The notes under the pieces: generated by a model | What the model was told of the DNA's origin: nothing | The model's database searches: none | What the model saw: the letters and a program-made list of their open reading frames with translations, nothing else | In this document: positions 1-43,403 of the stretch, one piece after another | Numbering within the stretch: position 1 is the stretch's first letter | Layout of the letters: each line of letters begins with the position of its first letter | NCBI RefSeq assembly: GCF_000385215.1 | Contig: NZ_ARQK01000038.1 | Coordinates: 1-48,836, forward strand | Reading direction: 5' to 3' | DNA: 48,836 nt | DNA from: Thioalkalivibrio thiocyanoxidans ARh2 | GTDB lineage: Bacteria > Pseudomonadota > Gammaproteobacteria > Ectothiorhodospirales > Ectothiorhodospiraceae | Program-made: the position numbers and the translations under genes

Positions 1-96
1 GCAAGAAAGTACCTCGCGGCGCGCTGGCGAGACAGCGCAGGCAGGCGGCAGGCCGAAGGCACGTAAACTCCAGATGCCGATCCAGGCCCAGCCTGA
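1..96. repeat. Dispersed repeat copy downstream of proC (window-edge repeat, copy 1)
   Basis: The first ~96 bases align in inverted orientation with 48689-48786. Shared blocks include GTACCTCGCGGCGCGCT, GGCAGGCGG, GCCGAAG, CGTAAAC and CCAGGCCCAGCCT. Relative to the neighbouring gene both copies have the same orientation: each starts a few bases after a stop codon (proC here, slt at the other end). I see no coding sequence in 1-115. The copy may continue beyond the window. Confidence 0.6.
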
Positions 97-115
97 AACG
101 CGGCGGACGAAGCCC

Positions 116-934
116 CTACTGTCCGAGTTCGCGCGAGCGTTCGGCCGCCGCCGCCATCGCGCGGCGCATGAGACCGCGCAGGTCGCCGTCCTCCAGCACC
201 TGCAGGGCGCGCTCTGTCGTGCCGCCCGGCGATGTCACGCGGTGGCGCAGTTCCGCCGGCGGCTCGTCGCTCTCGGCGGCCAGCCGGGTTGCACCCGCCA
301 AGGTACCGAGGGTCAGTTCCAGCGCGGTGTCCGGTGGCAGCCCGAGCGACTGCGCGGCCTCCTGCATCGCCTCGATCATCAGGAAGACGTAGGCCGGGCC
401 GCTGCCCGAGGTCGCCGTGACCGCGTGCATCAGCTCCTCGCCCGCCACGGGGATCGCCCGTCCCACCGACTCCAGCAGGCGGGTGGCGGTGTCGCGGTCC
501 TCGGGGGTGGCGGTGGGGGCGGTAAACAGACCGGTCACGCCGGCGCCAACCAGGGCCGGCGTGTTGGGCATCGCGCGCACCAGGCGGGTGTCGTCACCCA
601 GCCAGCTGGCCAGTTGGGCCGTGGTGATGCCTGCGGCCACCGAGATCACCAGGGGCTGCCCGCGGGTGACGGCCTCGCGCAGCGTGGGAGCCAGGTCCGG
701 CAGCGTCTGCGGCTTGACCGCGAGGACCAGCGTGTCGCTGTCCTCGGCGAGCGCCTCGGCACTTGCGGCCTGCAGCCCGGGGTAGCGGGCCTGGAGATCG
801 CGCACGCGCTCGGCACTCTTGTCGGCGACGGCGATGCGCTCGGCGTCGTGGCCGGACTGGATCAGGCCCTGCAGCAGGGCTTCGCCCATGTTGCCGGCGC
901 CGATAAAGCCGACTTCGAAGCGGTGTTCCGTCAT
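116..934 (-). CDS. proC: Pyrroline-5-carboxylate reductase
   Basis: Catalyses the last step of proline synthesis in the cytoplasm, reducing pyrroline-5-carboxylate to proline with NAD(P)H. The 272-residue product has the usual family length. A Rossmann nucleotide-binding loop GFIGAGNMGEALLQGL is at residues 9-24, followed by VKPQTL and AMPNTPALVGAG. The C-terminal dimerisation/active-site half carries TSGSGPAYVF and SPGGTTERAL. The ATG lies 14 bases after the yggS stop on the same strand, so the two form an operon; yggS-proC pairing is widespread in proteobacteria. Confidence 0.96.
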   Translation of the reverse strand: MTEHRFEVGFIGAGNMGEALLQGLIQSGHDAERIAVADKSAERVRDLQARYPGLQAASAEALAEDSDTLVLAVKPQTLPDLAPTLREAVTRGQPLVISVAAGITTAQLASWLGDDTRLVRAMPNTPALVGAGVTGLFTAPTATPEDRDTATRLLESVGRAIPVAGEELMHAVTATSGSGPAYVFLMIEAMQEAAQSLGLPPDTALELTLGTLAGATRLAAESDEPPAELRHRVTSPGGTTERALQVLEDGDLRGLMRRAMAAAAERSRELGQ

Positions 935-948
935 GCGGACTCCTGTTC

Positions 949-1662
949 TTACTGGTTTGTTGCGGGTTTGTTGCGGGGCCCGAACAGCGCGGTGCCGATG
1001 CGTACCAGGGTGGCACCCTCGAGGATCGCGGCCTCGAGATCGCCGGACATGCCCATGGACAGGGTATCCAGGTCATGTCCCTGCGCATTGAGTTCGTCCT
1101 TCAGTTGCCGCAGCCGGGCAAATGGCTGGCGCTGGCGCTCGCGATTGCTCTCGGCGGCCGGCAGGGTCATCAGGCCCCGTAACGTCAGCCCGGGCAGATT
1201 CGCGACGGTGTCGGCCAGCGCGGCGGCGGCTTCCGGCGGTACACCCGCCTTCTGGCGCTCGCCCGAGACATTGATCTGCAGGCAGACCTGCAAGGGCGGC
1301 AGGTGTTCCGGGCGCTGTTGCGACAGGCGGCGGGCAATGCGCTCGCGGTCGATGGTGTGGACCCAGTGGGCGCGTTCGGCCACGGGGCGTGTCTTGTTGC
1401 TCTGCAGTGCGCCGATGTAGTGCCACTCGAGGCCCAGGGGGGTCGCGCCGGTCTCGAGGGCGTCGAACTTGTCGATGAGTTCCTGCACGTAGTTCTCGCC
1501 GAACGCCGTCTGCCCGAGGGCGTGCAGCGCGCGGATCTCGTCGGCCGTACGCGTCTTGGATACGGCCAGAAGGTGCACGCTCCCGGGGTTGCGTCCGGCC
1601 TGTTCGCAGGCGTGAACGATGCGTTCGCGAACGGCCCTGAATGCGTGGTCTGGTGCGCTCAT
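949..1662 (-). CDS. yggS: PLP homeostasis protein, YggS/PLPBP family
   Basis: A pyridoxal-phosphate-binding protein without known enzymatic activity that buffers PLP and affects amino-acid homeostasis. The 237-residue product shows LLAVSKT with the PLP lysine at residue 36, GENYVQE, WHYIGALQSNK and the C-terminal SMGMSGDLEAAI phosphate-binding loop. I start at the ATG giving MSAPDHAF, where the family normally begins. An in-frame ATG 63 bases upstream would add a non-homologous N-terminus and run into the pilT leader. The gene is transcribed divergently from pilT across 1663-1805. Confidence 0.93.
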   Translation of the reverse strand: MSAPDHAFRAVRERIVHACEQAGRNPGSVHLLAVSKTRTADEIRALHALGQTAFGENYVQELIDKFDALETGATPLGLEWHYIGALQSNKTRPVAERAHWVHTIDRERIARRLSQQRPEHLPPLQVCLQINVSGERQKAGVPPEAAAALADTVANLPGLTLRGLMTLPAAESNRERQRQPFARLRQLKDELNAQGHDLDTLSMGMSGDLEAAILEGATLVRIGTALFGPRNKPATNQ

Positions 1663-1805
1663 GGCCCTATGATATAGTCCGGTGAAACGTAAGGGCACCG
1701 CCGCCAGGCGGGCGGTGTCCGCCACACGCAGCGGGGCCCGGCAGGGCGCCGCCCGGGGCGGGGCGCTGGGGCTGGCGGCTCGTTTCCGGTTGTACAGGGG
1801 GATGC
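1663..1805. promoter_or_regulatory. Divergent yggS/pilT intergenic region
   Basis: A 143-base spacer between divergent start codons. The only AT-rich patch is CTATGATATAGT at 1667-1678, close to the yggS start, and it could supply -10 elements in either direction. No confident -35 partner is visible. The rest is GC-rich without recognisable operators. Calling it promoter-bearing rests mainly on the divergent layout. Confidence 0.35.
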
Positions 1806-2840
1806 ATGGATATCACGCAGCTGCTGGCCTTTGCGGTCAAGAACGGGGCCTCGGATCTGCACATCTCGGCGGGCATGCCGCCGATGGTGCGCATCGATGG
1901 CGATATGCGTCGCGTGAATGTGCCGGTCATGGACCACAAGGAGGTCCAGGGCCTGATCTACGACATCATGAACGACCGCCAGCGCAAGGACTACGAGGAG
2001 TTCCTGGAGACGGACTTCTCGTTCGAGGTCACCGGGCTGGCGCGCTTTCGTGTCAATGCGTTCAATCAGGACCGGGGCGCGGCCGCAGTCTTCCGTACCA
2101 TCCCCTCCAAGGTGCTCACCCTGGAAGAGCTGGCGGCACCGCGCATCTTCGAGGAGATCTCCAACTATCCGCGCGGGATCGTGCTGGTCACCGGCCCGAC
2201 CGGCTCGGGCAAGTCGACCACGCTGGCGGGCATGGTCAACCACCGCAACGAGAACGACTACGGCCACATCCTGACGATCGAGGACCCGATCGAGTTCGTG
2301 CACGAGTCGAAGAAGTCGCTGGTCAACCAGCGCGAGGTGCACCGCGACACCCACGGCTTTTCCGAGGCCTTGCGCTCCGCACTGCGCGAGGACCCGGACA
2401 CCATCCTGGTCGGCGAGTTGCGTGACCTCGAGACCATCCGCCTGGCGCTGACCGCGGCCGAGACGGGCCACCTCGTCTTCGGCACCCTGCATACCAGCTC
2501 CGCCGCCAAGACGATCGACCGTATCGTCGATGTGTTCCCGGCGGCCGAGAAGGACATGGTGCGGGCGATGCTGTCCGAGTCGCTGCGGGCGGTGATCGCG
2601 CAGACCCTGATGAAGAAGATCGGCGGCGGGCGAATCGCCGCGCACGAGATCATGCTCGGCACGCCGGCGATCCGGAACCTGATCCGCGAGAACAAGATCG
2701 CGCAGATGTATTCGACCATCCAGACCAGCGCCGGCACCGGCATGCAGACGCTGGACCAGTGCCTGAAGGACATGCTGGCCCAGGGTGTGATCAGCCGCGA
2801 GGACGCCAAGCGCAAGGCCTCCAACCCGGATTCGTTCTGA
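1806..2840 (+). CDS. pilT: Type IV pilus retraction ATPase PilT
   Basis: Hexameric cytoplasmic AAA-like ATPase that powers pilus depolymerisation for twitching motility. The 344-residue protein has Walker A GPTGSGKST at residues 130-138 (K136), an Asp box TIEDPIEF, Walker B-type ILVGELRD and a His box GHLVFGTLHT. The PilT signature AIRNLIRE starts at A288, exactly where the P. aeruginosa protein has it; this motif is needed for retraction and separates PilT from PilU. It is the first of three consecutive paralogues and lies 42 bases before pilU. Confidence 0.97.
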   Translation: MDITQLLAFAVKNGASDLHISAGMPPMVRIDGDMRRVNVPVMDHKEVQGLIYDIMNDRQRKDYEEFLETDFSFEVTGLARFRVNAFNQDRGAAAVFRTIPSKVLTLEELAAPRIFEEISNYPRGIVLVTGPTGSGKSTTLAGMVNHRNENDYGHILTIEDPIEFVHESKKSLVNQREVHRDTHGFSEALRSALREDPDTILVGELRDLETIRLALTAAETGHLVFGTLHTSSAAKTIDRIVDVFPAAEKDMVRAMLSESLRAVIAQTLMKKIGGGRIAAHEIMLGTPAIRNLIRENKIAQMYSTIQTSAGTGMQTLDQCLKDMLAQGVISREDAKRKASNPDSF

Positions 2841-2882
2841 GCCCGCGCCCCGTCCTGGGGCCTCGGCAAGGGGAGAAGCACC

Positions 2883-4055
2883 ATGGATCGTGACAAGGCG
2901 ATCAAGTACATGCACGACCTGCTCCGCGCCCTGGTGGACCGCGGCGGTTCGGACCTGTTCATTACGGTGGGCATGCCGCCGGCGGCCAAGATCGATGGCC
3001 GTGTGGTACCGATGACCGAGCAGAAGCTCACCGCCTCGCATACCCAGGCGCTGGTGCGCGCACTGATGAACGACAAGCAGTCCGCCGAATACGAGCGCCA
3101 TCAGGAGTGCAATTTCGCGATCGGCCTGCAGGGCGTGTCGCGCTTTCGCGTGAACGTGTTCACCCAGCGCGGCAGCCCCGGAATGGTGCTGCGCACGATC
3201 AACTCGGTGATCCCGAAGTTCGAGGACATCCAGATGCCGCCGCAGCTGGAGAAGATCACCATGGAGCGCCGCGGGCTGGTGATCTTCGTGGGGGGTACCG
3301 GCTCGGGCAAGTCGACCTCGCTGGCCGCGATGATTGGCCATCGCAATCGCAATGCCCCCGATCACATCGTAACCATCGAGGACCCGATCGAATTCGTCCA
3401 CGAGCACGAAAAGAGCATCATCACCCAGCGCGAGGTGGGCGTGGATACCGAGGGCTACGAGATCGCGCTGAAGAACACTCTGCGTCAGGCACCGGATGTG
3501 ATCCTGATCGGCGAGATCCGCGATCGGGAGACGATGGACTACGCGATCGCCTTTGCCGAGACCGGTCACCTGTGCCTGTCCACCCTGCATGCCAACAGCA
3601 CTAACCAGGCGCTGGACCGTATCATCAACTTCTTTCCCGAGGACCGGCGCGAGCAGCTCCTGATGGACCTGTCGCTGAACCTCAAGGCGGTGATCTCGCA
3701 GCGCCTGGTGCGGCACGAGAACGGCGAGGGCCGCGTGCCGGCGGTGGAGATCCTGATCAACTCCCCGCTGATGGCCGACCTGATGCTGAAGGGCGCGGTG
3801 CACGAGATGAAGGAGCTGATGTCGCGTTCCCGCGAGCAGGGCATGCAGACCTTTGACCAGGCCCTGTTCGACCTCTACGAGACCCGCAAGATCAGCTACG
3901 AAGAGGCCCTGCGCAACGCCGATTCGGTGAACGACCTGCGGCTGCGTATCAAGCTCGATTCGCAGCGTGCACAGGAGGACGGCGCACCGGCGGTGGCCGA
4001 CGAGGGCGAGGGCCTGTCCGTGGACGACCGTCCCGAGGACTACAGTGTCCGCTAG
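2883..4055 (+). CDS. pilU: Type IV pilus retraction ATPase PilU
   Basis: PilT-dependent accessory retraction ATPase of the type IV pilus base. The 390-residue protein carries Walker A GGTGSGKST near residues 137-145, TIEDPIEFVHEHEKS, VILIGEIRDRE and GHLCLSTLHAN. It lacks AIRNLIRE and instead has SPLMADLMLKG, as PilU proteins do. An acidic, probably flexible tail follows residue ~360. A purine-rich AAGGGGAGAAGC precedes the ATG as ribosome-binding site. The gene order pilT-pilU matches Pseudomonas. Confidence 0.95.
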   Translation: MDRDKAIKYMHDLLRALVDRGGSDLFITVGMPPAAKIDGRVVPMTEQKLTASHTQALVRALMNDKQSAEYERHQECNFAIGLQGVSRFRVNVFTQRGSPGMVLRTINSVIPKFEDIQMPPQLEKITMERRGLVIFVGGTGSGKSTSLAAMIGHRNRNAPDHIVTIEDPIEFVHEHEKSIITQREVGVDTEGYEIALKNTLRQAPDVILIGEIRDRETMDYAIAFAETGHLCLSTLHANSTNQALDRIINFFPEDRREQLLMDLSLNLKAVISQRLVRHENGEGRVPAVEILINSPLMADLMLKGAVHEMKELMSRSREQGMQTFDQALFDLYETRKISYEEALRNADSVNDLRLRIKLDSQRAQEDGAPAVADEGEGLSVDDRPEDYSVR

Positions 4056-4082
4056 CGGTCCGCACCCATCGGGAGACCAGCG

Positions 4083-5201
4083 ATGAGCCAGCTGCAGATC
4101 GAACCGTACCTGAGCCTGATGGCGCAGAAGGCCGCCTCGGATCTGTTCTTCCTGACCGGCGCGCCCGCGAGCATCAAGGTCGATGGGGTCCTGCAGCCGA
4201 TCTCGCGCAAGGCCCTCGCCCCCGGTCAGGCCGAGACCATCGCGCGCGAGATGATGAACGCGCATCAGGCCGAGATCTTCGAGCGCGAGACTGCGGTCAA
4301 CTTTGGTATCTCGCGCGAGGGTCTGGGACGCTTCCGCGTGAACGTCTATCGCCAGCGCGGCGAGGTCGCGATGGTGATCCGCTTCATCCGCATGTCCATC
4401 CCGACCATCGAACAGCTCGGTCTGCCTCCGGTACTGCAGGATTTTGTCGCGCACCAGGACGGGCTGGTGCTGATCGTTGGCGCCACCGGGACCGGGAAGT
4501 CCACCACGCTGGCCTCGATGATCGACCATCGCAATACGCACTCCAGCGGACACATCCTCACGGTCGAGGACCCGATCGAATTTCTCTTTACCCACAAGCG
4601 CTCGATCATCGGGCAGCGCGAGGTCGGGATCGACACGCCGAGCTATGATCACGCCCTCCAGGAAGGCATGCGCGAGGCCCCGGACGTGATCATGATCGGC
4701 GAGGTGCGTTCCCGCGAGACCATGCGCGCGGCGCTGACCTATGCGGATACAGGCCACCTGGTGCTGACGACCCTGCACGCGACCAATGCCAGCCAGGCCC
4801 TGGATCGCGTGATCAATCTCTTTCCCGAAGACAATCGTTCGCAGATCCTTTCCGATCTGTCACTGAACCTGCGCGCGATCATCGCCCAGCGCCTGTTGCA
4901 GACCAAGGACGGCCAGCGTGTGGCTGCGCTGGAGATCATGGTGAACACGCCGTATATCTCCGAACTGATCCGCGATGAGAAGATCAGCGAGATTAAGGAG
5001 ATTATGGCCAAGGGCAGCTCGGTGGGGATGCAGACCTTCGATCAGGCCATCGTCAAGCTGTTCAAGGGTGGCCGAGTGATGCTGGACGAGGCCCTGAACA
5101 AGGCGGACTCGCGTGCCGATCTCGAATGGCGCCTGAACTTCGGCGGTGGTGTCGCCGCGGCCGACGAGGCCGAGGAAGACCTTGAACTCCCCGACAAGTA
5201 G
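4083..5201 (+). CDS. Third PilT/PilU-type ATPase (PilU-like paralogue)
   Basis: A 372-residue PilT/PilU-family ATPase encoded 27 bases after pilU. Walker A GATGTGKST is at residues 133-141 (K139), followed by TVEDPIEFLFTHKRS, VIMIGEVRSRE and GHLVLTTLHATN, so all nucleotide-binding elements are intact. The PilT-specific AIRNLIRE position reads TPYISELIRDEKI, closer to PilU than to PilT. The C-terminus is acidic (DEAEEDLELPDK). Most gammaproteobacterial loci of this type have only pilT-pilU. The protein probably acts with PilT/PilU on retraction, but its own role cannot be told from sequence. Confidence 0.85.
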   Translation: MSQLQIEPYLSLMAQKAASDLFFLTGAPASIKVDGVLQPISRKALAPGQAETIAREMMNAHQAEIFERETAVNFGISREGLGRFRVNVYRQRGEVAMVIRFIRMSIPTIEQLGLPPVLQDFVAHQDGLVLIVGATGTGKSTTLASMIDHRNTHSSGHILTVEDPIEFLFTHKRSIIGQREVGIDTPSYDHALQEGMREAPDVIMIGEVRSRETMRAALTYADTGHLVLTTLHATNASQALDRVINLFPEDNRSQILSDLSLNLRAIIAQRLLQTKDGQRVAALEIMVNTPYISELIRDEKISEIKEIMAKGSSVGMQTFDQAIVKLFKGGRVMLDEALNKADSRADLEWRLNFGGGVAAADEAEEDLELPDK

Positions 5202-5228
5202 GATGCGCTGAGCGAAGCGAACCGCATC
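5202..5228. repeat. REP-like palindrome after the third pil ATPase
   Basis: GATGCG (5202-5207) and CGCATC (5223-5228) form a 6-bp inverted repeat around GCTGAGCGAAGCGAAC, starting one base after the TAG stop. Short palindromes of this type with GCGAAGCG cores occur as dispersed repeats in many gammaproteobacteria. It may also act as a weak terminator or mRNA-stabilising hairpin between the convergent pil and pyrK genes. There is no T-tract. The remaining 5229-5307 shows nothing recognisable. Confidence 0.4.
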
Positions 5229-5307
5229 ACCTTCCGTCCTGCAACTCAGACTCCGGGGCGTCGCCGCGAGCTTTACGGGGTGAAGGCCTCGGTCCGGGTT
5301 TCGCTCC

Positions 5308-6207
5308 TCAGGCCGGTTCTGGGAACACGTCGGCGGCGGCGAAGACCGGGCCGTCCACGCAGACTCGCTTCATCGCGACCCCGTCGGGCGTGCGCACCGG
5401 TACCGTGCAGCCGGCGCAGCCACCCACCGCACAGGCCATGAATTCCTCCAGAGAAACCTGACAAGGCAGGTCGAACTCCGCTGCCAGTTCCGCGCAGGCC
5501 TCGAGCATCGGGTGCGGGCCGCAGGCGTAGAGCTCGACCTGGTCACGTTCCGCGGGCGAGAGCGTGTTGAGCCAGGCCCGGGCGAGATCGGTCACGAAGC
5601 CGTCATGGGCGCCGGGGATACCGGCCTTCGAGGTCAGGCGGCAGGCCACACCCCAGTCCTCCAGCAGCGGCAGGGTCGCGATCGCGCCATCCGGCAGCCC
5701 TGGCCAGAGGATCTCCGAGGGCTTGGCGCGAAACGGGAACGGCACCTCGGAGCCGAGGATCGCGCGGGTCTGGCCCGCCTCGCCCTGGCGGCGCAGGTGA
5801 TCGGCCAGAAAGATCATCGGCGGGATCCCGACGCCACCCCCGAGCAACAGCCGCAGCGGGCGTTCGGGATTCAGCCGGAACGGGACCCCGATCGGCCCCA
5901 GCACACTCAGGAAATCGCCCACCGGCTGTTGCGACAGCGCCCGCGTGCCGTCGCCCACGACCTTGTAGAGGAATTCGACCCACCCGGCCTCGCGGTCGAC
6001 CCGCTGGATCGACAGGGGGCGCCGCATCGGCAGGTTCGGCGAGCACTGGATATGGGCGAACTGCCCGGGCGCGGCACGTTGCGCACATTCCGGTGCCTGG
6101 ACGCGCAGGATCCACTGCCCGGCCCCGGCATCCTGGTGATCGAGGATGCGGGCCGCCTCCTCGAAGATCGTGCCGCGGTGGGGGCGTTCGGCGTCGGTGG
6201 GGGTCAT
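5308..6207 (-). CDS. pyrK: Dihydroorotate dehydrogenase electron-transfer subunit, PyrK-like
   Basis: A 299-residue ferredoxin-reductase-type flavoprotein. An FAD-binding barrel with MRRPLSIQRV (residues ~61-70) and VGDGTRAL is followed by an NAD-binding half with LLLGGGVGIPP and ELYACGPHPMLEA. The tail holds the cysteine set FMACAVGGCAGCTVPV plus RVCVDGPVF, the [2Fe-2S] site typical of PyrK. PyrK passes electrons between NAD and class 1B dihydroorotate dehydrogenase (PyrD). No pyrD lies in this window. Gammaproteobacteria mostly use quinone-linked class 2 PyrD, so the partner is uncertain. AAGGA sits six bases before the ATG. An inverted-repeat element separates it from pyrC'. Confidence 0.85.
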   Translation of the reverse strand: MTPTDAERPHRGTIFEEAARILDHQDAGAGQWILRVQAPECAQRAAPGQFAHIQCSPNLPMRRPLSIQRVDREAGWVEFLYKVVGDGTRALSQQPVGDFLSVLGPIGVPFRLNPERPLRLLLGGGVGIPPMIFLADHLRRQGEAGQTRAILGSEVPFPFRAKPSEILWPGLPDGAIATLPLLEDWGVACRLTSKAGIPGAHDGFVTDLARAWLNTLSPAERDQVELYACGPHPMLEACAELAAEFDLPCQVSLEEFMACAVGGCAGCTVPVRTPDGVAMKRVCVDGPVFAAADVFPEPA

Positions 6208-6219
6208 GCGTTGTCCTTA

Positions 6220-6530
6220 GGGAAACACTGGATAATGTACACGCTCGCGCTCGAGTCGCTTTTGCGTGCGAACAAGGCGCGGTGACTGCCGTGCAGTGAC
6301 TCTGCACAAGGGAGCCGCAACGCCGTGCGCGCGCCCGTTTTTGATAACAACGGGCGGCCGAGCCCCTGCTTTAATGGCTTGTGGGGTTGGCATCCCAGGT
6401 TCCCCGATCCGGCGTTGCGCCCCGAATCAATCAGAAACGGGCGGGTAGAACCACTACCCGCTGCACGACGCGCCTTGTCTCGGAAAACCTGGGGTGCCAA
6501 CGCGAGCGTGTACATTATTCAGTGTTTCCC
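6220..6530. mobile_element. MITE-like element, 311 bp, between pyrC' and pyrK
   Basis: The left end GGGAAACACTGGATAATGTA continues CACGCTCGCG. The reverse complement of the right end matches it over 30 bases with one mismatch. The element is flanked by TTA at 6217-6219 and 6531-6533, a likely 3-bp target duplication. It encodes no transposase. An internal subterminal inverted repeat (6386-6401 against 6486-6501, 15 of 16) and a GGGTAG/CTACCC hairpin near 6451-6468 make it fold back strongly. Its right ~75 bases recur at 11861-11936. The ends resemble those of IS elements with 3-bp duplications, but I cannot name the parent IS. Confidence 0.8.
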
Positions 6531-7810
6531 TTAGTGGGCTGGGTCCAGGCCGGACGGCCCGCCACCCAAGTCTCGCGAACCTGGCCGGAGAAGGTCCAGC
6601 CGAAAAACGGCGAGTTGCGTCCGCTGCTCAGCCAGTCCAGCTGTCGGACCTCCTGCAGAGCCGCGGGATCATACAGCACGAAATCGGCCCGTGCGCCGGC
6701 GCCGAGCCGGCCCTGCTCGAAGCCAAGGATCTCGGCGGGTCCGGACGTCACACGTGCCAGGGCATCACCGAGACTCAGCAACCCGTCCTCGACCAGGCGC
6801 AGCGTCAGGGGCAGCAGGGTCTCCAGGGCCGAGATGCCCGGCTCGGTACTGGCGAACGGCCCGAGCTTGGCGTCCGCCTCGTGCGGTTGGTGGTCCGAGC
6901 AGATGGCGCTGATATCGCCGCGCGCGACGGCTTCGCGCAGGCCGTCACGGTCGCGCTGGGCACGCAGCGGCGGGATTACATGGCCGTTCGGGTCGAACTC
7001 GGCGACATCGACTTCGGTCAGGAACAGCTGGTGGGCGGCCACATCGGCGCTGATCGGCAGGCCCTCGGCGCGCGCCTTGGCGATCATCTCGGCCCCGCGG
7101 CGCGTCGACAGCCGCGCGACATGGACGCGTGCCCCGGTCTGCTCGACCAGGGCCAGGATGGCGCCCAGCGCGGCGGTCTCGGCCGCCTCGGGGATGCCCG
7201 ACAGGCCCAGGCGCGTGGAGACCGCGCCCTCGTGCATGCAGCCCGAGCCGGTCAGCGACAGGTCCTGAGCGGGCAGTACAGTCGTCAGGCCGAACGTGGT
7301 CGCGTATTCCAGGGCCCGACGCAGCACCAGCAGGCTGGACAGCGGTTTGTGGGCGTTGCTCACGCCGCGGGCTCCCGCCTGTTGCAGCGCCGCCATCTCG
7401 GCGAGCTGCTGCCCCTCCAGGCGCTGCGTCAGGGCACCCAGGGTATAGACCCGCACCCCGCAGGCCTGCCGTGCGCGGCGTGCGATCAACTCGATCTCGG
7501 CCGGCGAGTCGATGGGCGGATCGGTGTCCGGGGGAATCACGACGCTGGTGATGCCCCCGCGCGCGGCGGCCAGGGTCTCGCTGGCGATGGTGGCCTTGTG
7601 CTCCTCGCCGGGTTCGCGCATGCGCGCGGACAGGTCGATCAGGCCGGGGAACACCCAAAGCCCGGTACCGTCAATGCGCCTTCGCGGCTCGAAGCCGTCC
7701 GGTACCTGTCCGCGCGCGAGGATCTCGGCACCCTGCAGGCAGAGCGCCCCGACCTCGTCGTAGTCGTCTGCCGGGTCGATGATCCGTACGTTCTCGATCA
7801 GTACGCTCAC
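6515..7810 (-). CDS. pyrC': Dihydroorotase-like non-catalytic subunit PyrC'
   Basis: A 431-residue amidohydrolase-fold protein. In active dihydroorotases the first metal-binding motif reads D-x-H-x-H followed by REPG. Here it is [10 protein letters not shown], so both histidines are missing and the enzyme should be inactive. This matches the PyrC' (PyrX) scaffolds of Pseudomonas-type aspartate transcarbamoylase, which hold PyrB trimers in a dodecamer. The start overlaps the pyrB stop by four bases (ATGA). The last residues GNTE and the TAA stop are read from the terminal repeat of the adjacent inserted element. A true dihydroorotase must be encoded elsewhere. Confidence 0.9.
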
Positions 7811-8829
7811 GACTGATGCGCCCCCATCACCATGGACATCACGGCCTGACGCACCGAGATGCCGTAGGTCACCTGCTGCAGGATCACCGAGTGCGGCCCG
7901 TCCGCCACCGCGGACTCGATTTCCACCCCGCGGTTGGCCGGGCCCGGGTGCATCACCAGGCAGGTGGGGTGCGCGAGCTGCAGACGGCGCGACGTCAGGC
8001 CGAACAGCTGGTAGTACTCGTGCTCGGAGGGGAGATGGGCGTGTTCCATGCGCTCGCGCTGCAGGCGCAGCATGATGATCACGTCGACGTCCTTCAGCCC
8101 GGCGTCGAGGTCGTTGTAGACGTGCACGCCGAGCTGATCGACATCCGCCGGCAGCAGCGAACAGGGCGCGACCACGCGCACCTCGCCGGTCTGCAGGATG
8201 TTGAGCGCGTGGATCTGCGAACGCGCGACGCGCGAGTGCAGGATGTCGCCGACGATCGCGACCTTCAGCTTGGTGAAGTCGCCCTTGTGCCGGCGGATGG
8301 TGAACATGTCCAGCAGGGCCTGGGTGGGGTGCGCGTGGCGGCCGTCGCCGGCGTTCAGCACGCTGATCCCGGGCGCCGCATGGCGGGCGATGAAATGCGC
8401 GGTCCCGCTCTCCTCGTGGCGCACGACGAACATGTCCACGTTCATCGCCTCGAGGTTGCGCAGGGTGTCCAGCAGGCTCTCGCCCTTGACCGCCGAGGAG
8501 GTGCTGATGTTGATGTTGAGCACGTCCGCGGACAGGCGCTTGGCGGCCAGTTCGAAGGTGGTGCGGGTGCGGGTGCTGGCCTCGAAGAACAGGTTGACGA
8601 TGGTCTTGCCGCGCAGCAGCGGGACCTTCTTCACCGCCTTCTCGTTCATGTTTGCGAACGACTCGGCGGTATCCAGGATCTCGATCAGGAGGTCGCGGTT
8701 GAGGCCCTCGATGGTCAGCAGGTGGCGCAGCTGGCCGTCATCGGTCAGCTGCAGGCGATTGGGCAACGGGCCCGGCTCCGGCAGGCGGGTGGCCCCGGCC
8801 AGGGCCGGGGTGACCACGGTATCGCTCAT
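7807..8829 (-). CDS. pyrB: Aspartate carbamoyltransferase catalytic subunit
   Basis: Condenses carbamoyl phosphate with aspartate, the committed step of pyrimidine synthesis. The 340-residue protein has the carbamoyl-phosphate motif STRTRT at residues 85-90, [14 protein letters not shown], and the C-terminal [12 protein letters not shown]. An N-terminal extension of about 30 residues precedes the core; such extensions in Pseudomonas-type enzymes hold effector-binding determinants. The start overlaps pyrR by four bases and the stop overlaps pyrC' by four bases, indicating translational coupling and a PyrB-PyrC' complex. Confidence 0.96.
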
Positions 8830-9350
8830 GCGTCGGCGTCCCCGTCGGTCTCGAGGGTGACGCGCTCCAGGCGCAGGGGTTCGGGGCCGCGCAGCTTGAT
8901 CTGTTCCCGGGTGCCCAGTTCCATGTGTTCTCCGACGATCGCGGCGGCGATCGGCAGCTCGCGCCCGTCACGCTCGACCAGCACGGCGAGCGTGACCGAG
9001 GCGGGACGCCCGTAGTCGAACAGTTCGTTCAGGGCGGCGCGGATCGTGCGCCCGGTGTAGAGCACGTCATCCACCAGCAGGACATGCACGCCGTCCAGGT
9101 CCTCCGGCAGCTCGGACGGGCGGACCTGCGGATGCATGCCGATGCGCGAGAAGTCGTCGCGGTAGAAGCTGATATCCAGCTTGCCCAGCGGCCTCTCCAC
9201 CCCGAGGCGTTCGCGTAGGTGCTCGGCGATCCAGACACCGCCGGAGTGGATACCGACCACCATCGGGTTGTCGATGCCGTGCCTGGCCAGGTACTGGCGC
9301 GTCTGTTCGGCCATGCTGTCGAGCAGGGTTGGGACATCCGGCGTCTTCAT
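8826..9350 (-). CDS. pyrR: Bifunctional pyr regulator / uracil phosphoribosyltransferase-like PyrR
   Basis: A 174-residue type I phosphoribosyltransferase. The PRPP-binding motif [18 protein letters not shown] occupies residues ~90-107, and [10 protein letters not shown] forms the N-terminal loop. In Firmicutes PyrR is an RNA-binding attenuator. In pseudomonads it sits upstream of pyrB-pyrC' as here and affects pyr gene expression. I start at the ATG giving MKTPDV, which overlaps the ruvX stop as ATGA. The open frame continues upstream only as a shadow of ruvX and yqgE. Confidence 0.92.
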
Positions 9351-9739
9351 GCGTTCTCCTGAAACCAGCCTTCGAGGATGACCGCGGCAGCGTGGGCGTC
9401 CAGCCCCGGGTCGTGGCGTCCCCGCCCGCTGCGCTCGCGGGCCAGGTGCGATGTCAGATGCTCGTCGTACCAGTATACCGGCTGGCCGTAGCGCGCTTCG
9501 AGAGCGGCCCCGAACGCGCGGATGCGTTTCGCCAGCGGGGTGGGTTTGCCGTCCGCTTGGGTAGGCCAGCCGACGACAAAGCCTTCGGGCGCCCAGTCGC
9601 TTACCAGGCTGTCGATCATCGGCCACAGCTCCGGTGAATCGGTGTTGAGCGTGCGCAGTCCGCGCGCGGCGCCGGTCAGTTCCTCGCCCACTGCGATCCC
9701 GATCCGCCGGCGGCCGTAGTCGAAGGCCAGAAGCCCCAT
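9347..9739 (-). CDS. ruvX: Putative pre-16S rRNA nuclease RuvX/YqgF
   Basis: An RNase H-fold nuclease family protein implicated in processing the 16S rRNA 5' end. The 130 residues begin with LLAFDYGRRRIGIAVG (first acidic metal ligand D7), then GWPTQADGK, and PVYWYDEHLTS carrying the second acidic residue. Length is normal for YqgF. It lies 18 bases downstream of yqgE and overlaps pyrR by four bases. The yqgE-ruvX pair is strongly conserved across gammaproteobacteria. Confidence 0.95.
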   Translation of the reverse strand: MGLLAFDYGRRRIGIAVGEELTGAARGLRTLNTDSPELWPMIDSLVSDWAPEGFVVGWPTQADGKPTPLAKRIRAFGAALEARYGQPVYWYDEHLTSHLARERSGRGRHDPGLDAHAAAVILEGWFQENA

Positions 9740-9757
9740 GACGTTGCCGGGCCCGCC

Positions 9758-10336
9758 TCAGGCGTGGCCGGGCGCGGAACTGATCAGGTTGACGTCGATG
9801 CCGATCAGCTTCGCCGCCGCGGCCCAGCGCTCGGCGCTGGGGTGGTCGAACAGGATGTCGGCATCGGCGCGGGTGGTCAGCCAGGCGTTTTCGGCCAGTT
9901 CGCTCTCGAGCTGTCCCGGTCCCCAGCCGGCGTGTCCCAGGGCAATGAGGACGCGGTTCGGGCCGCGGCCCTCGTTGATGGCCTCCAGGATGTCGCGCGA
10001 GGTCGTCAGCACGATGGAGTCGGTAATGGGTTGGCTCCCCCGCCATTCGGGCTGGCCGGTATGCAGCACGAAGCCGTGCTCGGGCTGGACCGGGCCGCCG
10101 CGGTAGACCGGGATCTCCGGCAGCTCGTCGCGAGGTTCGAGATCGACGTGTTGTAGCAGATCGCGCAGCGAAAGCTCGGTTGGCTGGTTGATTACCAGCC
10201 CCAGGGCCCCTTCGGCGTCGTGATCGCAGATATAGGTGACCGCATGGCTGAAGTAGCCATCATTCAGGCTCGGCATCGCGATCAGGAAGTGATCGCGCAG
10301 GCTGGCCGCGCTCGAGCTGGAGGGGGCTTGCGTCAT
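9758..10336 (-). CDS. yqgE: UPF0301 family protein YqgE/AlgH
   Basis: A 192-residue member of the YqgE/AlgH family, whose biochemical role remains unsettled; AlgH was named as an alginate regulator in Pseudomonas. Recognisable family blocks are FLIAMPSLNDGYFSHAVTYI, GALGLVINQP, VYRGGPVQPEHGFVLH, and GHAGWGPGQLESELAENAWL. No signal peptide or membrane segment is present. It precedes ruvX by 18 bases and follows the tonB-like gene after 58 bases. Confidence 0.95.
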   Translation of the reverse strand: MTQAPSSSSAASLRDHFLIAMPSLNDGYFSHAVTYICDHDAEGALGLVINQPTELSLRDLLQHVDLEPRDELPEIPVYRGGPVQPEHGFVLHTGQPEWRGSQPITDSIVLTTSRDILEAINEGRGPNRVLIALGHAGWGPGQLESELAENAWLTTRADADILFDHPSAERWAAAAKLIGIDVNLISSAPGHA

Positions 10337-10394
10337 GTGCTCAGTATCGACGCTGCTCCGTTATGCCGCAAGGAACCGGGGCCCGGATGTTCCC

Positions 10395-11321
10395 CTAGCG
10401 AATCTGCTCTATCTGGTCGCGGCGGAAGGCCCAGGTCCGCGTGATCACGAGTTCGTCGTATTCCTCGCGCATCTGTTCGGTAAACGGGGCATAGGGGGCG
10501 GCGAGTTCCACGATGCGCATCGCCGCCTGGTCGAGCACCGGTTCGCCGGAGCTGCGGGCGATCTCGATGTTCATCAGCTCGCCGTCCGGGTTCAGGCGCA
10601 CCGACAGCACCAGCGTGCCGGACAGGCCCCGGCGGCGGGCCTCGTCGGGGTAGTTCAGGTTGCCCACGCGCTCGACCTTGTTGATCCAGGCCTGCAGATA
10701 CGCGGCCTCCGGCGCGCTGCGCGCGGCGAGGCTGTCGAGGTAGCGGGTGCGGGTGGCGCGGGTGGAGAACTCGCGGCGCTCTTCGGCCGGGGCCGCGCGC
10801 GCGGTGTCCAGGCCCCGGTTCATCAGCGCGGCGGCTGACGGGCGCTCCTCCGCCTCGGGCGATTCGATCGGCTCCGGTTCGGCGACCTCGGGGGCAGTCG
10901 GTTCCGCTTCGTCCGTCTCGGCCTCCACGGCCTCGGGTTCCGGCTCCGGTTCCGGTTGGGCGGGCTCCATGACCAGCGGCCCCGGGTCTGGGAGCGGGGC
11001 TTCGACGCCCTCGGGTTCCGGTTTACCGACACCCTCGGTCTCGGCCTCCGGGGACAGCGCCTCCTGCACTTCCTCGCCTTCGCCGCTGGCGGCCTGGTCC
11101 TCGGTGGCGATGCGCTCGACCTCTTCCGGCTCCGGCGCGTCCGGATCGGTCACCCAGGTCACGTCCAGGGGCTCGCGGGACGCGGTGTCCAGCGGGTCCA
11201 CCGCGAAGCCGATGCCGAGGATGATCAGGGCGTGCGCGACCACGGCCAGAAACAGCATCGGGGCCAGCTGGCCGCGACGCTGCGGGGATTCGGGTTCAAG
11301 GATGCCGTGCGAGACGGACAT
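10395..11321 (-). CDS. TonB-family energy transducer-like protein
   Basis: A 308-residue protein with one membrane anchor (residues ~20-41, APMLFLAVVAHALIILGIGF). A long Glu/Pro/Ala-rich periplasmic spacer (roughly 70-175) follows, then a TonB-like C-terminal domain with LNYPDEARRRGLSGTLVLSV and WAFRR near the end. It occupies the position of tonB3 in Pseudomonas, a gene linked there to twitching motility and pilus assembly. No exbB/exbD or TonB-dependent receptor is nearby. Its start lies inside the 3' end of the Gx-transporter gene (26-base overlap), so it is probably co-translated with the ApbE/NusG-II/Gx genes. Confidence 0.85.
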   Translation of the reverse strand: MSVSHGILEPESPQRRGQLAPMLFLAVVAHALIILGIGFAVDPLDTASREPLDVTWVTDPDAPEPEEVERIATEDQAASGEGEEVQEALSPEAETEGVGKPEPEGVEAPLPDPGPLVMEPAQPEPEPEPEAVEAETDEAEPTAPEVAEPEPIESPEAEERPSAAALMNRGLDTARAAPAEERREFSTRATRTRYLDSLAARSAPEAAYLQAWINKVERVGNLNYPDEARRRGLSGTLVLSVRLNPDGELMNIEIARSSGEPVLDQAAMRIVELAAPYAPFTEQMREEYDELVITRTWAFRRDQIEQIR

Positions 11322-11841
11322 GGCGCTGGATCCGGGGGTCTGCGAGCACGTGTGCGGCCAGTATACCGGTCACGCTGCCGGCAATCAGCGCAGCCAGCAA
11401 TAGTGGGGGTAGCACCAGTGGCAGGTTCGGGTGGGGGATGATCACGCCCCAGGCCAGCAGGAACTGGCCGGTGATGTGCGCCATCGCCGCGGCGATGGCG
11501 AGGCCCAGGGCGCCGACATGTCGTGGCGCCAGTGGACGCAGCAGGCCGAGCGCGGCCAGGGCGGCCAGGGCCCCGGCCAGCGATAGCCAGAAGGTGGGGC
11601 TCAGCAGTGTGCCGAGCAGCAGGGCGGCGCCGACGACCCGGATCAGGGTCACCGCGACCGCCGCGCGCCAGCCGAGGGTTAGCAGGGCGATCAGGGTCAC
11701 GATGTTCGCGAGTCCCGGTTTGATCCCGGGCACCGGGCTCGGGATCGCCGCCTCCAGGACCTGGACCCCAATGGCGATGGCGGCCAGCGCGGCGATCGCA
11801 CGGTCGCGCTGCGTCAGCGTGTCGGGGAATGAGGCGGTCAC
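11296..11841 (-). CDS. Gx-transporter family membrane protein
   Basis: A 181-residue hydrophobic protein with about five to six membrane segments and the family hallmark VPGIKPGLANIVTLIALLTL. The family is annotated as Gx transporter or, misleadingly, heptaprenyl diphosphate synthase component I. It is related to ECF-type substrate-binding membrane proteins and recurs next to ApbE and NusG-II proteins in redox gene clusters. The start is GTG (MTASF). It is separated from the NusG-II gene only by an 85-base repeat element. Substrate unknown. Confidence 0.85.
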   Translation of the reverse strand: MTASFPDTLTQRDRAIAALAAIAIGVQVLEAAIPSPVPGIKPGLANIVTLIALLTLGWRAAVAVTLIRVVGAALLLGTLLSPTFWLSLAGALAALAALGLLRPLAPRHVGALGLAIAAAMAHITGQFLLAWGVIIPHPNLPLVLPPLLLAALIAGSVTGILAAHVLADPRIQRHVRLARHP

Positions 11842-11851
11842 GTCGTACCCA

Positions 11852-11936
11852 GGGAAACACTACCCGCTGCACGACGCGCCTTGTATCGGAAAACCTGGGG
11901 CACCAGCGCGAGCGTGTACATTGATCAGTGTTTCCC
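11852..11936. mobile_element. Internally deleted MITE copy between NusG-II and Gx genes
   Basis: Bases 11861-11936 are nearly identical to 6455-6530, from TACCCGCTGC to the GTGTTTCCC end. The left end is reduced to GGGAAACAC, giving a 9-bp terminal repeat. The right flank is TTA, as at the 311-bp element, but the left flank is CCA, so no intact target duplication remains. The structure is explained by deletion of the left and central part of the 311-bp form at a short CAC homology. Without it the NusG-II stop and the Gx GTG would be about 10 bases apart. Confidence 0.75.
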
Positions 11937-12311
11937 TTAGTAGTGAATACTGTCGTAGCCGGGGCCGCGGCCCTGGACCTGCAGGGTCAGCCGGTTGGGC
12001 AGGCTGACCGCGACCTCGCCGTGACGCTGCAGCCAGCCGCTGTTCTCGCAGATGTTGCGTGTGCCGGGGGAGTCGGCGCAGCGGGCCCGGCCCGGCTCGA
12101 TCTGTACGCGGGTGATGCCGGCCGGGCCGTGGATCTCGATCTCGCGGGCTCGGTCCAGGGGCTCCTGCCGCGGCGGTTCTCCGGTCTGGGTGATGACCAG
12201 CATGGAGGCCTCGGTATCCGGCAGGTAGGCGAGGGCAAAGGCCGCAACCACCGCGCCGCTGGCCAGGGCGGCGATTACCCCGTCGCCCCAGCGCAGACCA
12301 GATAACGTCAC
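11937..12311 (-). CDS. NusG domain II-containing protein
   Basis: A 124-residue protein with one N-terminal membrane anchor (residues ~11-30) and an exported small beta-domain. NIENSGW-like text reads ICENSGWLQRHGEVAVSLPN, a characteristic of the NusG_II family, which is unrelated to transcription despite its name. Such proteins accompany ApbE and Gx transporters in flavin-based extracytoplasmic electron-transfer clusters. The GTG start overlaps the apbE stop by four bases (GTGA). The TAA stop abuts the end of the inserted repeat element. Confidence 0.82.
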   Translation of the reverse strand: MTLSGLRWGDGVIAALASGAVVAAFALAYLPDTEASMLVITQTGEPPRQEPLDRAREIEIHGPAGITRVQIEPGRARCADSPGTRNICENSGWLQRHGEVAVSLPNRLTLQVQGRGPGYDSIHY

Positions 12312-13366
12312 GGCAGCCCGCGCTCCTCGAGCGCGGGCTGGTCGTCCTCCATGCGCACGCGCTCGGCCATCGCCGGCGTTGCCTCGATGCGGTCATCGAG
12401 TACCACGAGGGCGGCCTCGATGCCCATCTTGCGGGCATAGTGCGGCCATTCCTCGGGGCCGGCGATCATCAGCGTGGTCGCGGCGGCATCGGCCAGCGCG
12501 GGGTCGCTGTGCAGCACGGTGGCCCCGTGGACGCCTTCACTGGGGCGTCCGGTGCGCGGGTCGATCACATGGTGGATGTGTTCACCTTCCCATTCATAGC
12601 CGCGCTCGTAGTCGCCGGAGCTGAACAGGGCCTCGACCGCGTCGAGTTCGATACTCCCGAGAATGCCCCCCTGCGGATGGCGGATCGCGACTTGCCAGGC
12701 TCGATCCGCGGGTCGCCCGAGGGTCATCAGGTCACCCCCGGCGTTGAAGATCGCGGCCTCCACGCCCTGATTCTGCAGCAGGTCGAGCATGCGTTCGACG
12801 GCGAGGCCCTTGGCGAGGCCGCCGAAGTCCAGCTGCAGATCCGCGTGCTGGCCGCGCAGGCGCACGCCGTTGCGCTCGATGTCGCGCATGCTGGGCGGGT
12901 CTTCGAGCAGCGCCTCCAGGGTTTCGGCGTCCGGCGGCGGGCCCTCGGGCTCGTCCTGGTGAAATCCCCAGGCGGCGACAAGCTTGCCCAGCGCGGGATT
13001 GAACAGGCCGTCGCTCAGCGCCTCCATCTCCTTTCCGCGCTCGATCAGCGGCAGCACGGACGGGGGGGCGCTGAACTCGGCCTGCAGCGCCAGCAGTTCG
13101 TTGGTGCGCCCGAGTGACCCGGGCTCCCAGGCATGCCAGGAGGTATGCAGGATCTCCAGCTCGGCCTGCAGCTCGGACTCCAGCGCCTCGAGGTCGTAGG
13201 CCCCGGCGGGGTAGAGCGTGATGTCCACGATCGTGCCGAAGGCAAAGAAGTTCAGCGTCTCGGTGTCCGGTGTGTCGCGGTCGCATCCGGCCAGGGCCAG
13301 CGCGGCGAGCAGGATCGGCCCGAGAAGGGCCTGGCGGGTGCGCAGGGGGATCGGCATGGGCATCAC
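12308..13366 (-). CDS. apbE: ApbE-type FAD:protein FMN transferase, lipoprotein
   Basis: Transfers FMN from FAD onto Thr/Ser of exported redox proteins such as RnfG/RnfD and NqrB/C. The 352-residue product has a lipoprotein signal with lipobox LALAGC (C28). It also has DFGGLAKGLAVERM, FNAGGDLMTLG and HHVIDPRTGRPSEGV, the flavin and metal site motifs of ApbE. It lies 9 bases after gshB and overlaps the NusG-II gene by four bases. No obvious FMN-accepting protein is encoded in the window, so its substrate must lie elsewhere. Confidence 0.94.
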   Translation of the reverse strand: MMPMPIPLRTRQALLGPILLAALALAGCDRDTPDTETLNFFAFGTIVDITLYPAGAYDLEALESELQAELEILHTSWHAWEPGSLGRTNELLALQAEFSAPPSVLPLIERGKEMEALSDGLFNPALGKLVAAWGFHQDEPEGPPPDAETLEALLEDPPSMRDIERNGVRLRGQHADLQLDFGGLAKGLAVERMLDLLQNQGVEAAIFNAGGDLMTLGRPADRAWQVAIRHPQGGILGSIELDAVEALFSSGDYERGYEWEGEHIHHVIDPRTGRPSEGVHGATVLHSDPALADAAATTLMIAGPEEWPHYARKMGIEAALVVLDDRIEATPAMAERVRMEDDQPALEERGLP

Positions 13367-13375
13367 CTCGCGGGG

Positions 13376-14317
13376 TCAGGGGCGGGTCAGGTAGTCGATG
13401 AACTGGCCGGCGAGGTCGTCGCCGCAGGCGGCATCGAGCTCGCGTACGCCGGTAGGGCTCGTCACGTTGATCTCCGTCAGGTAGTCGCCAATCACGTCGA
13501 TGCCGACAAAGTCCAGGCCGCGGCGTTTCAGTTCCGGGGCGATCTGCGCACAGATCCAGCGGTCGCGATCGGTCAGGGGTACGGCCTCGCCGCGCCCCCC
13601 GGCGGCCAGGTTCGCCCGGGTCTCGCCCTCGGCCGGGATCCGCGCCAGCGCGTAGTCGTAGGGTTCGCCGCCGATCAGGATGATGCGCTTGTCGCCGGCG
13701 GTGTATTCCGGCAGGAAGCGCTGGGCGACGATGGTGCGCTGGTCGAATTCGGTCATGGTCTCGAGGATCACCGAGAGGTTGGGGTCTCCCTCGCGGATAC
13801 GGAATACCGAGGCCCCGCCCATGCCGTCCAGCGGCTTGACCACGATGTCGCCCTGACGCTCGAGAAAGGCGCGGATACGCGCGCGGTCGCGGGTGATCAG
13901 GGTGGGTGGCCCGCAGTCCGCGAAATGCGTGGCAAAGGCCTTCTCGTTGACATCGCGCAGGGCGCCGGGCCGGTTGACCACGCGCACCCCGTCCCGCTCG
14001 GCGAGGTCCAGGGCGTAGGTGGCGTAGATGTATTCGAGGTCGAACGGCGGGTCCTTGCGCATCAGCAGGAGATCGAAACGACTGGCGTCGCCCTCGTCTT
14101 CCGGCCCCAGGGTGTAATAGCCCTCGCGCTGGTCCCGCACGGTCACCGGGCGACTTCGCACCTGGGCGCGTCCCGCGTCGATCCACAGGTCGCCGGGTTC
14201 CAGGTAGTGCAGGCGATGCCCGCGGGCCTGGGCGGCGAGCAGCATGGCGAAGGTCGTGTCTTTCCACGGCTTGATGCTGGCGATGGGGTCCATCAGGACA
14301 GCGATGTCATGCGCCAC
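13376..14317 (-). CDS. gshB: Glutathione synthetase
   Basis: ATP-grasp ligase that joins gamma-glutamylcysteine and glycine to make glutathione. I choose the GTG giving MAHDIAVLMDPIASIKPWKD (313 residues), because the E. coli enzyme starts ten residues before the same MDPI motif and is 316 long. The frame is open a further 216 bases but has no homology and would overlap the pilG promoter. ATP-grasp elements include VVKPLDGMGGASVF, RFLPEYTAGDKRI and FVGIDVIGDYLTEINVTSP. It heads the minus-strand run and is divergent from pilG. Confidence 0.95.
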   Translation of the reverse strand: MAHDIAVLMDPIASIKPWKDTTFAMLLAAQARGHRLHYLEPGDLWIDAGRAQVRSRPVTVRDQREGYYTLGPEDEGDASRFDLLLMRKDPPFDLEYIYATYALDLAERDGVRVVNRPGALRDVNEKAFATHFADCGPPTLITRDRARIRAFLERQGDIVVKPLDGMGGASVFRIREGDPNLSVILETMTEFDQRTIVAQRFLPEYTAGDKRIILIGGEPYDYALARIPAEGETRANLAAGGRGEAVPLTDRDRWICAQIAPELKRRGLDFVGIDVIGDYLTEINVTSPTGVRELDAACGDDLAGQFIDYLTRP

Positions 14318-42125: not shown

Positions 42126-43346
<1,221 letters not shown>

Positions 43347-43347
43347 G

Positions 43348-43371
43348 GAAACGCTGATTGATCAGCGTTTC
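43348..43371. repeat. Perfect palindrome with MITE-like ends between malic enzyme and mdh genes
   Basis: GAAACGCTGAT-TG-ATCAGCGTTTC: 11-bp arms around 2 bases, directly after TAAG of the malic-enzyme stop. The arm GGAAACGCTGAT matches the GGGAAACACTGAT ends of the elements at 6220-6530 and 11852-11936 except for one internal base and one G. It looks like two element ends joined with no interior, or a minimal relative. It may also act as a transcript hairpin. Confidence 0.6.
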
Positions 43372-43403
43372 TCCAAACTCCACCTCCGTCAGACGAGGGA
43401 AGC

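Follow-up and report, generated by a model that had tools for sequence, protein, structure and literature searches.

Bacterial MITEs of the IS5 type, in the passages of a review that treat them (PMC10969869), are shorter than 350 bp, have ends in common with an insertion sequence (IS) of the same genus, make a short duplication, occur in many copies and carry no transposase. The Thioalkalivibrio element described here is alike in all these respects, but differs in having an interior unrelated to the IS that we found, three hairpin modules that are each long or short, and an orientation preference between co-directional genes. The Chunjie MITE of Geobacter uraniireducens sits in an operon; a title cited in the same review says that the operon structure is undisturbed, and the review's text on Chunjie says that one copy of an operon was disrupted. 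Neither a bridging start-stop frame nor an orientation census is mentioned in those passages on Chunjie (PMC10969869).

Open frames in MITEs are already known as fusions to genes. ERIC/RU-1, YPAL/RU-2, RU-3 and the 107-bp Correia elements are, like our element, hairpin-forming MITEs with contiguous open frames, and the sections of Delihas (PMC2759123) and of PMC2229807 that deal with them describe these frames as fused in frame to genes; the frame of the Thioalkalivibrio element is instead separate, its ATG coinciding with the upstream stop or following it closely, and its end lying at or near the next start. The Rickettsia palindromic elements are likewise palindromic and mobile and contain an open frame, but in the relevant passages (PMC2229807, PMC10969869) they are in-frame inserts inside genes, whereas copies of our element lie mostly between genes. 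The GTAG REPs, palindromic repeats of 20-40 bp from the same genus, are set apart from the element by their description in the portion of PMC3733652 that covers them. Among the openly licensed papers listed, titles and abstract openings yielded none describing this Thioalkalivibrio element family or an orientation-biased, bridging MITE.

The window, by which we mean the whole 48,836-nucleotide stretch analyzed here, comes from the soda-lake bacterium Thioalkalivibrio thiocyanoxidans ARh2 and contains a copy of the element inside a pyr operon, with the following features:

7807..8829, minus strand: pyrB (aspartate carbamoyltransferase), overlapping pyrC' as GTGA
6515..7810, minus strand: pyrC' (dihydroorotase family), its last residues, GNTE, read from the element
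6531..6533, no strand: target duplication copy on the pyrC' side, TTA on the plus strand, compared with unoccupied alleles
6220..6530, minus strand: mobile element (MITE-like), module class ABC; the strand is the sense of the bridging frame, as for the pyr operon
6501..6530, minus strand: terminal inverted repeat on the pyrC' side, 30 nt
6513..6517, minus strand: TAATG, an overlap of the pyrC' stop (TAA) with the bridging-frame ATG, both supplied by the element end
6204..6515, minus strand: bridging open reading frame of 103 codons, from the element ATG to the former pyrC' TGA
6220..6249, minus strand: terminal inverted repeat on the pyrK side, with one mismatch to the repeat at 6501..6530
6217..6219, no strand: target duplication copy on the pyrK side, TTA on the plus strand, compared with unoccupied alleles
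6204..6207, minus strand: ATGA, in which the pyrK ATG and the bridging-frame stop overlap; relatives have the stop of pyrC' itself here
5308..6207, minus strand: pyrK-like gene (DHODB electron transfer subunit family), starting 307 nt beyond the end of pyrC'

Direct reading of the sequence bears out the anatomy given in the first-pass annotation, namely a 311-bp element (6220-6530) whose 30-bp ends differ by one mismatch and which has TTA on both sides; longer inverted arms of 34 nt (6216-6249/6501-6534) are 94% complementary. The PyrC' tail was also correctly attributed to the element, with pyrK 307 nt away: the reading frame ends in TKGNTE and a stop within it. The ATGA coupling claimed for the rest of the operon holds at pyrR/pyrB, whereas the pyrB/pyrC' overlap is GTGA. 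PyrC' scores 488.8 against the cut-off of 442 of the dihydroorotase model NF005791, and PyrB and PyrR exceed their NCBIfam cut-offs; PyrK has a DHODB Fe-S domain above the Pfam cut-off and is below the cut-off for every NCBIfam model listed. The pyrK-like gene is the last on the minus strand before a convergent secretion-ATPase gene (4083..5201, plus strand). A promoter- or terminator-like consensus was without a match at the window copy of the element, and so offers no other explanation of the orientation bias described below.

Insertions in operons are expected to lower downstream gene expression. Here the element brings TAATG and, leading on to ATGA, a frame of 103 codons, so that the split need not have uncoupled pyrC' from pyrK, and on sequence grounds the coupling was probably rebuilt rather than lost. 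We lean somewhat toward an account in which the TAATG restart and the through-frame carry ribosomes to pyrK, and in which selection sorts copies that lie between tandem genes. The insertion shifted the stop of pyrC' to a point a few codons inside the element and put a distance between the two genes; ribosomes finishing pyrC' would then restart on the bridging frame at TAATG, traverse an otherwise very structured 300 nt and hand translation to pyrK, and because the bridge would be translated the insertion would cause no polarity. The bridging peptide itself may be functionless. If this holds, PyrK co-expression may have survived the insertion, and the spread of a high-copy element through operons would be explained by its bringing a start of its own, a frame that stays open, and a stop located at the start that follows.

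The state of the junction before insertion can be read from relatives. We searched 30 Thioalkalivibrio genomes and obtained the pyrC' junction from 29 (G021 gave no match), of which 5 are occupied by the element (G000, G005, G013, G008 and G014) and 24 are unoccupied. An ATGA with the pyrC' TGA inside it, and its ATG in frame with pyrK, is present in all 22 unoccupied genomes that have an adjacent pyrK; the pyrK starts here are sequence-based inferences, with additional in-frame starts upstream in some. The first-pass annotation had reconstructed just such an overlap by deleting the element, so that its interpretation is supported, and the unoccupied allele of G009, CCC ACC GAG GAC ACC GCA TGA, equals its reconstruction in length. 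The spacer is shared only by the four nearest relatives, all of them element-bearing, and the next relatives are empty. The other two unoccupied genomes, G003 (L051) and G002 (L052), in which pyrK was not found in the fetched stretch beside pyrC', are also the two largest (3.8 and 4.0 Mb).

The five occupied genomes form one clade in both gene trees, which fits a single insertion; from this shared site the insertion would most simply have happened once, in an ancestor of the five. The pyrK-side target copy reads TAA on the minus strand in 5/5 occupied genomes, and the pyrC'-side copy reads TAA in G000 and G013 and TGA in G005, G008 and G014. The proposed TTA duplication thus stands for the two sides of the window copy but is mixed among the five genomes, and since the target copies differ, the exact target at insertion is uncertain. 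Elsewhere in the family, 11 of 17 other sites queried (among 30 loci fetched) have a homologous allele without the full element: an empty allele at 10, and a remnant only at one more. By reading, the duplication at those 10 sites is 2 nt at seven and 3 nt at three. In a simple flank comparison, equal 2-nt flanks occur in 35/91 copies and equal 3-nt flanks in 4/91, numbers low enough that many duplications must have decayed. A duplication of the form TTAG/YTAR was considered and dropped, as comparison with empty sites gives mostly 2 nt.

The element is no chance arrangement, and its copies are abundant. A 25-nt pattern of the element end (up to 3 mismatches) occurs 30 times forward and 30 times in reverse in the genome, whereas the reversed control gave none in either direction, and 40 places in the own draft genome have 150 or more matched bases, several of them cut by contig ends. 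Six contigs of G000 (C47, C11, C30, C53, C60 and C16) have element matches starting in their first 20 bases; the draft breaks at element copies, so that copy number is underestimated. The element was found in 16/30 Thioalkalivibrio genomes and in 0/28 genomes from outside the genus. A draw of 369 genomes across the class, less sensitive because only two candidates were scored per genome, gave matches in four, two of them Thioalkalivibrio and the other two short and marginal (30 and 39 nt, E 4e-4 and 9e-4). Plasmid and phage collections gave no match to the element.

A candidate source of its ends is a 1202-bp IS in G005 (L157) that starts GGGAAACGCTGATCAATG and finishes ATAAATCAGTGTTTCCC, matching the ends of the element, and whose transposase scores 319.3 bits against the IS5 family model NF033581 (cut-off 140). 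Of the 16 genomes with the element, 8 have a match to this transposase, which in 5 is long (90% or more of the query, at an identity of at least 91%), and none was found in the window's own draft genome or in G013, G008 and G014. Between the element and the IS, blastn aligns the ends over 11-18 nt and finds nothing else but short words with E above 1; having no subterminal sequence in common with the IS, the element does not appear to be a simple deletion derivative of it, and its interior may have another origin. The element is short, multi-copy and without transposase, has terminal inverted repeats, and shows a target duplication and empty alleles, and the bridging open reading frame is without a match to NCBIfam models at E 0.001. 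To judge from these features it is a high-copy non-autonomous transposable element with IS5-type ends, related through those ends to an IS from the same genus.

The lengths of 91 distinct copies cluster near 267, 282, 297 and 312, and the copies contain three hairpin modules that are each long or short and occur in all eight combinations (ABC 35, AbC 14, aBc 11, aBC 9, abC 8, abc 8, ABc 5 and Abc 1). In L013 and L015 the module C hairpin is the reverse complement of that in most module-C copies, which looks like an inversion in situ. The copy at the pyr site is of class ABC in G000 and G005, and G013, G008 and G014 have short forms of A and C there; these differing module states suggest that copies exchanged sequence after the insertion.

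The palindromic structure raises an alternative in which the element works at the RNA level: a strong hairpin within the operon mRNA would be cleaved or would stabilize ends, as for the NEMIS hairpins in the portion of a review that covers them (PMC2229807), and would set pyrK apart from pyrRBC', with an asymmetric internal RNA signal giving the orientation bias described below. The predicted fold is far more stable than that of shuffled sequences (z -10.5), stems are kept as the hairpin modules vary in length, and changes on both sides of pairs are found in the outer and inner stems, with at least two Watson-Crick pair types, each in at least 3 copies, at 20/29 outer-stem positions. Selection on sense RNA would nevertheless be expected to favor G-T over A-C, and among 195 copies the outer stem has 65 sense G-T pairs versus 192 A-C (61 versus 117 without position 24); a palindrome also pairs alike on both strands and by itself gives no explanation of orientation. 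Rfam gave no match in window positions 1-14000 at the gathering threshold and none to the element in six loci at E up to 5, where the matches outside it were a tRNA in L062 and a weak one to a miRNA model in L010. With no Rfam match and a wobble asymmetry in the wrong direction, the structured-RNA candidate was set aside, and we consider an RNA role for the element in the operon quite unlikely.

The account in which ribosomes cross the element turns on its open frame. The consensus element end contains TGA and TAA and then ATG, all within 18 nt. The terminal repeat usually stops two frames (143/197 copies at the left end); the idea that it stops all three was dropped, that being so in only 4 of the 197. 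The bridging frame has 103 codons in G000 and G005 and 93 in G013 and G008, and TAATG...ATGA with an open frame between is thus present in 4/5 occupied genomes, across 311- and 281-bp module states; in G014 the frame runs for 84 codons and ends at a TAA within the far terminal repeat, 24 nt before the pyrK ATG. The four genomes with the intact bridge lack one base of module B relative to its commonest long form (16 versus 17); this shifts the frame, in which the sole TGA is changed to TCA in all four. In this comparison, for which the loop was recognized in 86/91 copies, the loss of the TGA in the pyr lineage counts as a single event, and 6/10 copies in that frame keep the TGA, all six with the frame already broken ahead of it.

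Throughout the family (144 sites), the frame that opens at the terminal ATG runs right through the element at 108/128 sites with a start in the sense direction and at 14/131 in antisense. Stops in the bridging frame are depleted, 79/91 copies being stop-free versus 62.8 ± 3.3 in a variability-weighted permutation, with a milder depletion in the antisense frame r1 (68 versus 59.0 ± 3.4), although the permutation ignores the shared ancestry of copies and these values are indications rather than probabilities. A protein-coding gene, considered for the class-size steps of about 15 bp and the one open frame, was rejected, as module B adds 14 and the reading frame of the second (C-terminal) half varies among copies, leaving no conserved peptide. 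Between G000 and G005, which have 13 base differences in the element, 9/103 residues of the bridging peptide differ.

An alternative is an ordinary neutral MITE insertion, with pyrK translated from its own Shine-Dalgarno-like AAGGA, the element inert and the frame a by-product of a G+C-rich palindrome. The pyrK-side flank does retain TAAGGA, 6 nt ahead of the pyrK ATG; polarity would cost one gene only, pyrK being the last before the convergent gene; and r1 on the other strand is often open too, 61/91 copies having an uninterrupted stretch of 85 codons or more there. Frame integrity is also independent of context, at 31/38 copies with a start at forward tandem sites and 22/24 elsewhere, and so lends no support to selection on the frame after insertion. 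Against neutrality, the stop-start overlaps at both ends are kept in 4/5 occupied genomes despite a 30-bp change between them, and an inert palindrome gives no orientation preference, whereas the one observed is pronounced (75:19 between tandem genes, and 50:6 at gaps up to 100 nt; see below). Taken together we find neutral insertion rather unlikely. The context independence also counts against the ribosome-bridging account, and the bridging frame may be an inherited family property that determines which sites copies persist at, and not one restored site by site.

For the orientation census, 197 copies were reduced to 152 sites, 144 of which had both neighbors called and 139 of which were classified by a codon model trained on 24 stretches (the window and flanks of element sites); 9 matches that were partial or lay at a contig end, with no paired end, were dropped, as were, from the third set, 11 loci without an element match and 5 matches without paired ends. 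By codon usage, 75 sites are tandem forward, 19 tandem reverse, 21 divergent and 24 convergent. The tandem forward:reverse ratio is 42:7 in the first set, where the bias was noticed, and 33:12 in the sites fetched later (p 0.0025). With a simpler first gene caller, the three sets gave 40:5, 16:10 (p 0.33, not significant) and 17:5. Some frame is open for 150 nt on both sides and through the element at 8/144 sites, and excluding these leaves 69:19 with the first caller. At L252 (G008:C2) that caller ran one frame through the element, a possible in-gene insertion, and the codon model called otherwise. A Pfam check of 10 of the 20 flank proteins drawn per class matched 10/10 at forward sites and 6/10 at reverse sites, so that some reverse sites may be miscalled.

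The bias is strongest where genes are close, at 50:6 for gaps of up to 100 nt versus 25:13 for longer ones (difference p 0.008; long gaps alone p 0.07), and in the later sets alone at 20:2 versus 13:10 (p 0.017). The difference depends on the cut-off, with p 0.19 at 40 nt, 0.12 at 60 nt, 0.02 at 80 nt and 0.008 at 100 nt. By module, forward:reverse is 33:4 for copies with A versus 23:11 without it, a nominal p of 0.04 for one of three modules tested, and this difference was given no weight. Replication-strand bias was discarded as a cause, there being no strand pattern in the G005 chromosome (32 copies; 1908/2000 random strand sets do as well).

The orientation might alternatively be set at insertion, by a transposase or a target, such as stop or ribosome-binding sequences, that orients the element relative to genes. 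At 18/56 forward tandem sites the stop codon of the upstream gene has its last base at the first base of the element, and the TA of stop codons may be a favored target. The terminal repeats are near-identical, however, so that a TA target alone would not be able to orient the element, and the bias weakens in long gaps (25:13), as selection would predict; we judge an origin at insertion very improbable. Under ribosome bridging, copies between co-directional genes would favor the through-frame orientation because opposite-orientation copies would more often be lost by selection. The family-wide through-frame and the census suggest that selection keeps those insertions that ribosomes can cross. 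A broader reading, which we offer tentatively and rate a little short of even, is that of an operon-adapted mobile element, whose terminal repeat would serve as a stop/restart cassette and whose interior is open one way, making it a movable translational linker without polarity, its copies sorted genus-wide by ribosome crossing. The idea is open to direct testing, since empty alleles and remnants occur naturally and about 140 sites can be compared.

Remnants of the element occur at several places. Two of the 11 other sites with an allele lacking the full element retain a terminal remnant (L224 in G005 and L238 in G000). At the pyrC' end, G010 (L036) and G015 (L041) are without the full element and have 12 extra in-frame bases exactly at the insertion point, reading GTCC TCGG GGTTTCCC TCGG TGGG on the plus strand, where the final bases of the element are enclosed by two copies of TCGG; G009 has a single TCGG at this position. 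G010 and G015 are not sisters in either gene tree, and the remnant was therefore either ancestral and then lost, or moved by recombination; an independent insertion behind it is possible. Deletion between short repeats seems the likelier cause of the remnants and of an 85-bp relic of the family elsewhere in the window (11852-11936), which has both ends, lacks most of the interior and is flanked by CCA and TTA. At 43346-43373, the window also contains a short sequence, AGGAAACGCTGATTGATCAGCGTTTCTC, that resembles two element ends joined head to head.
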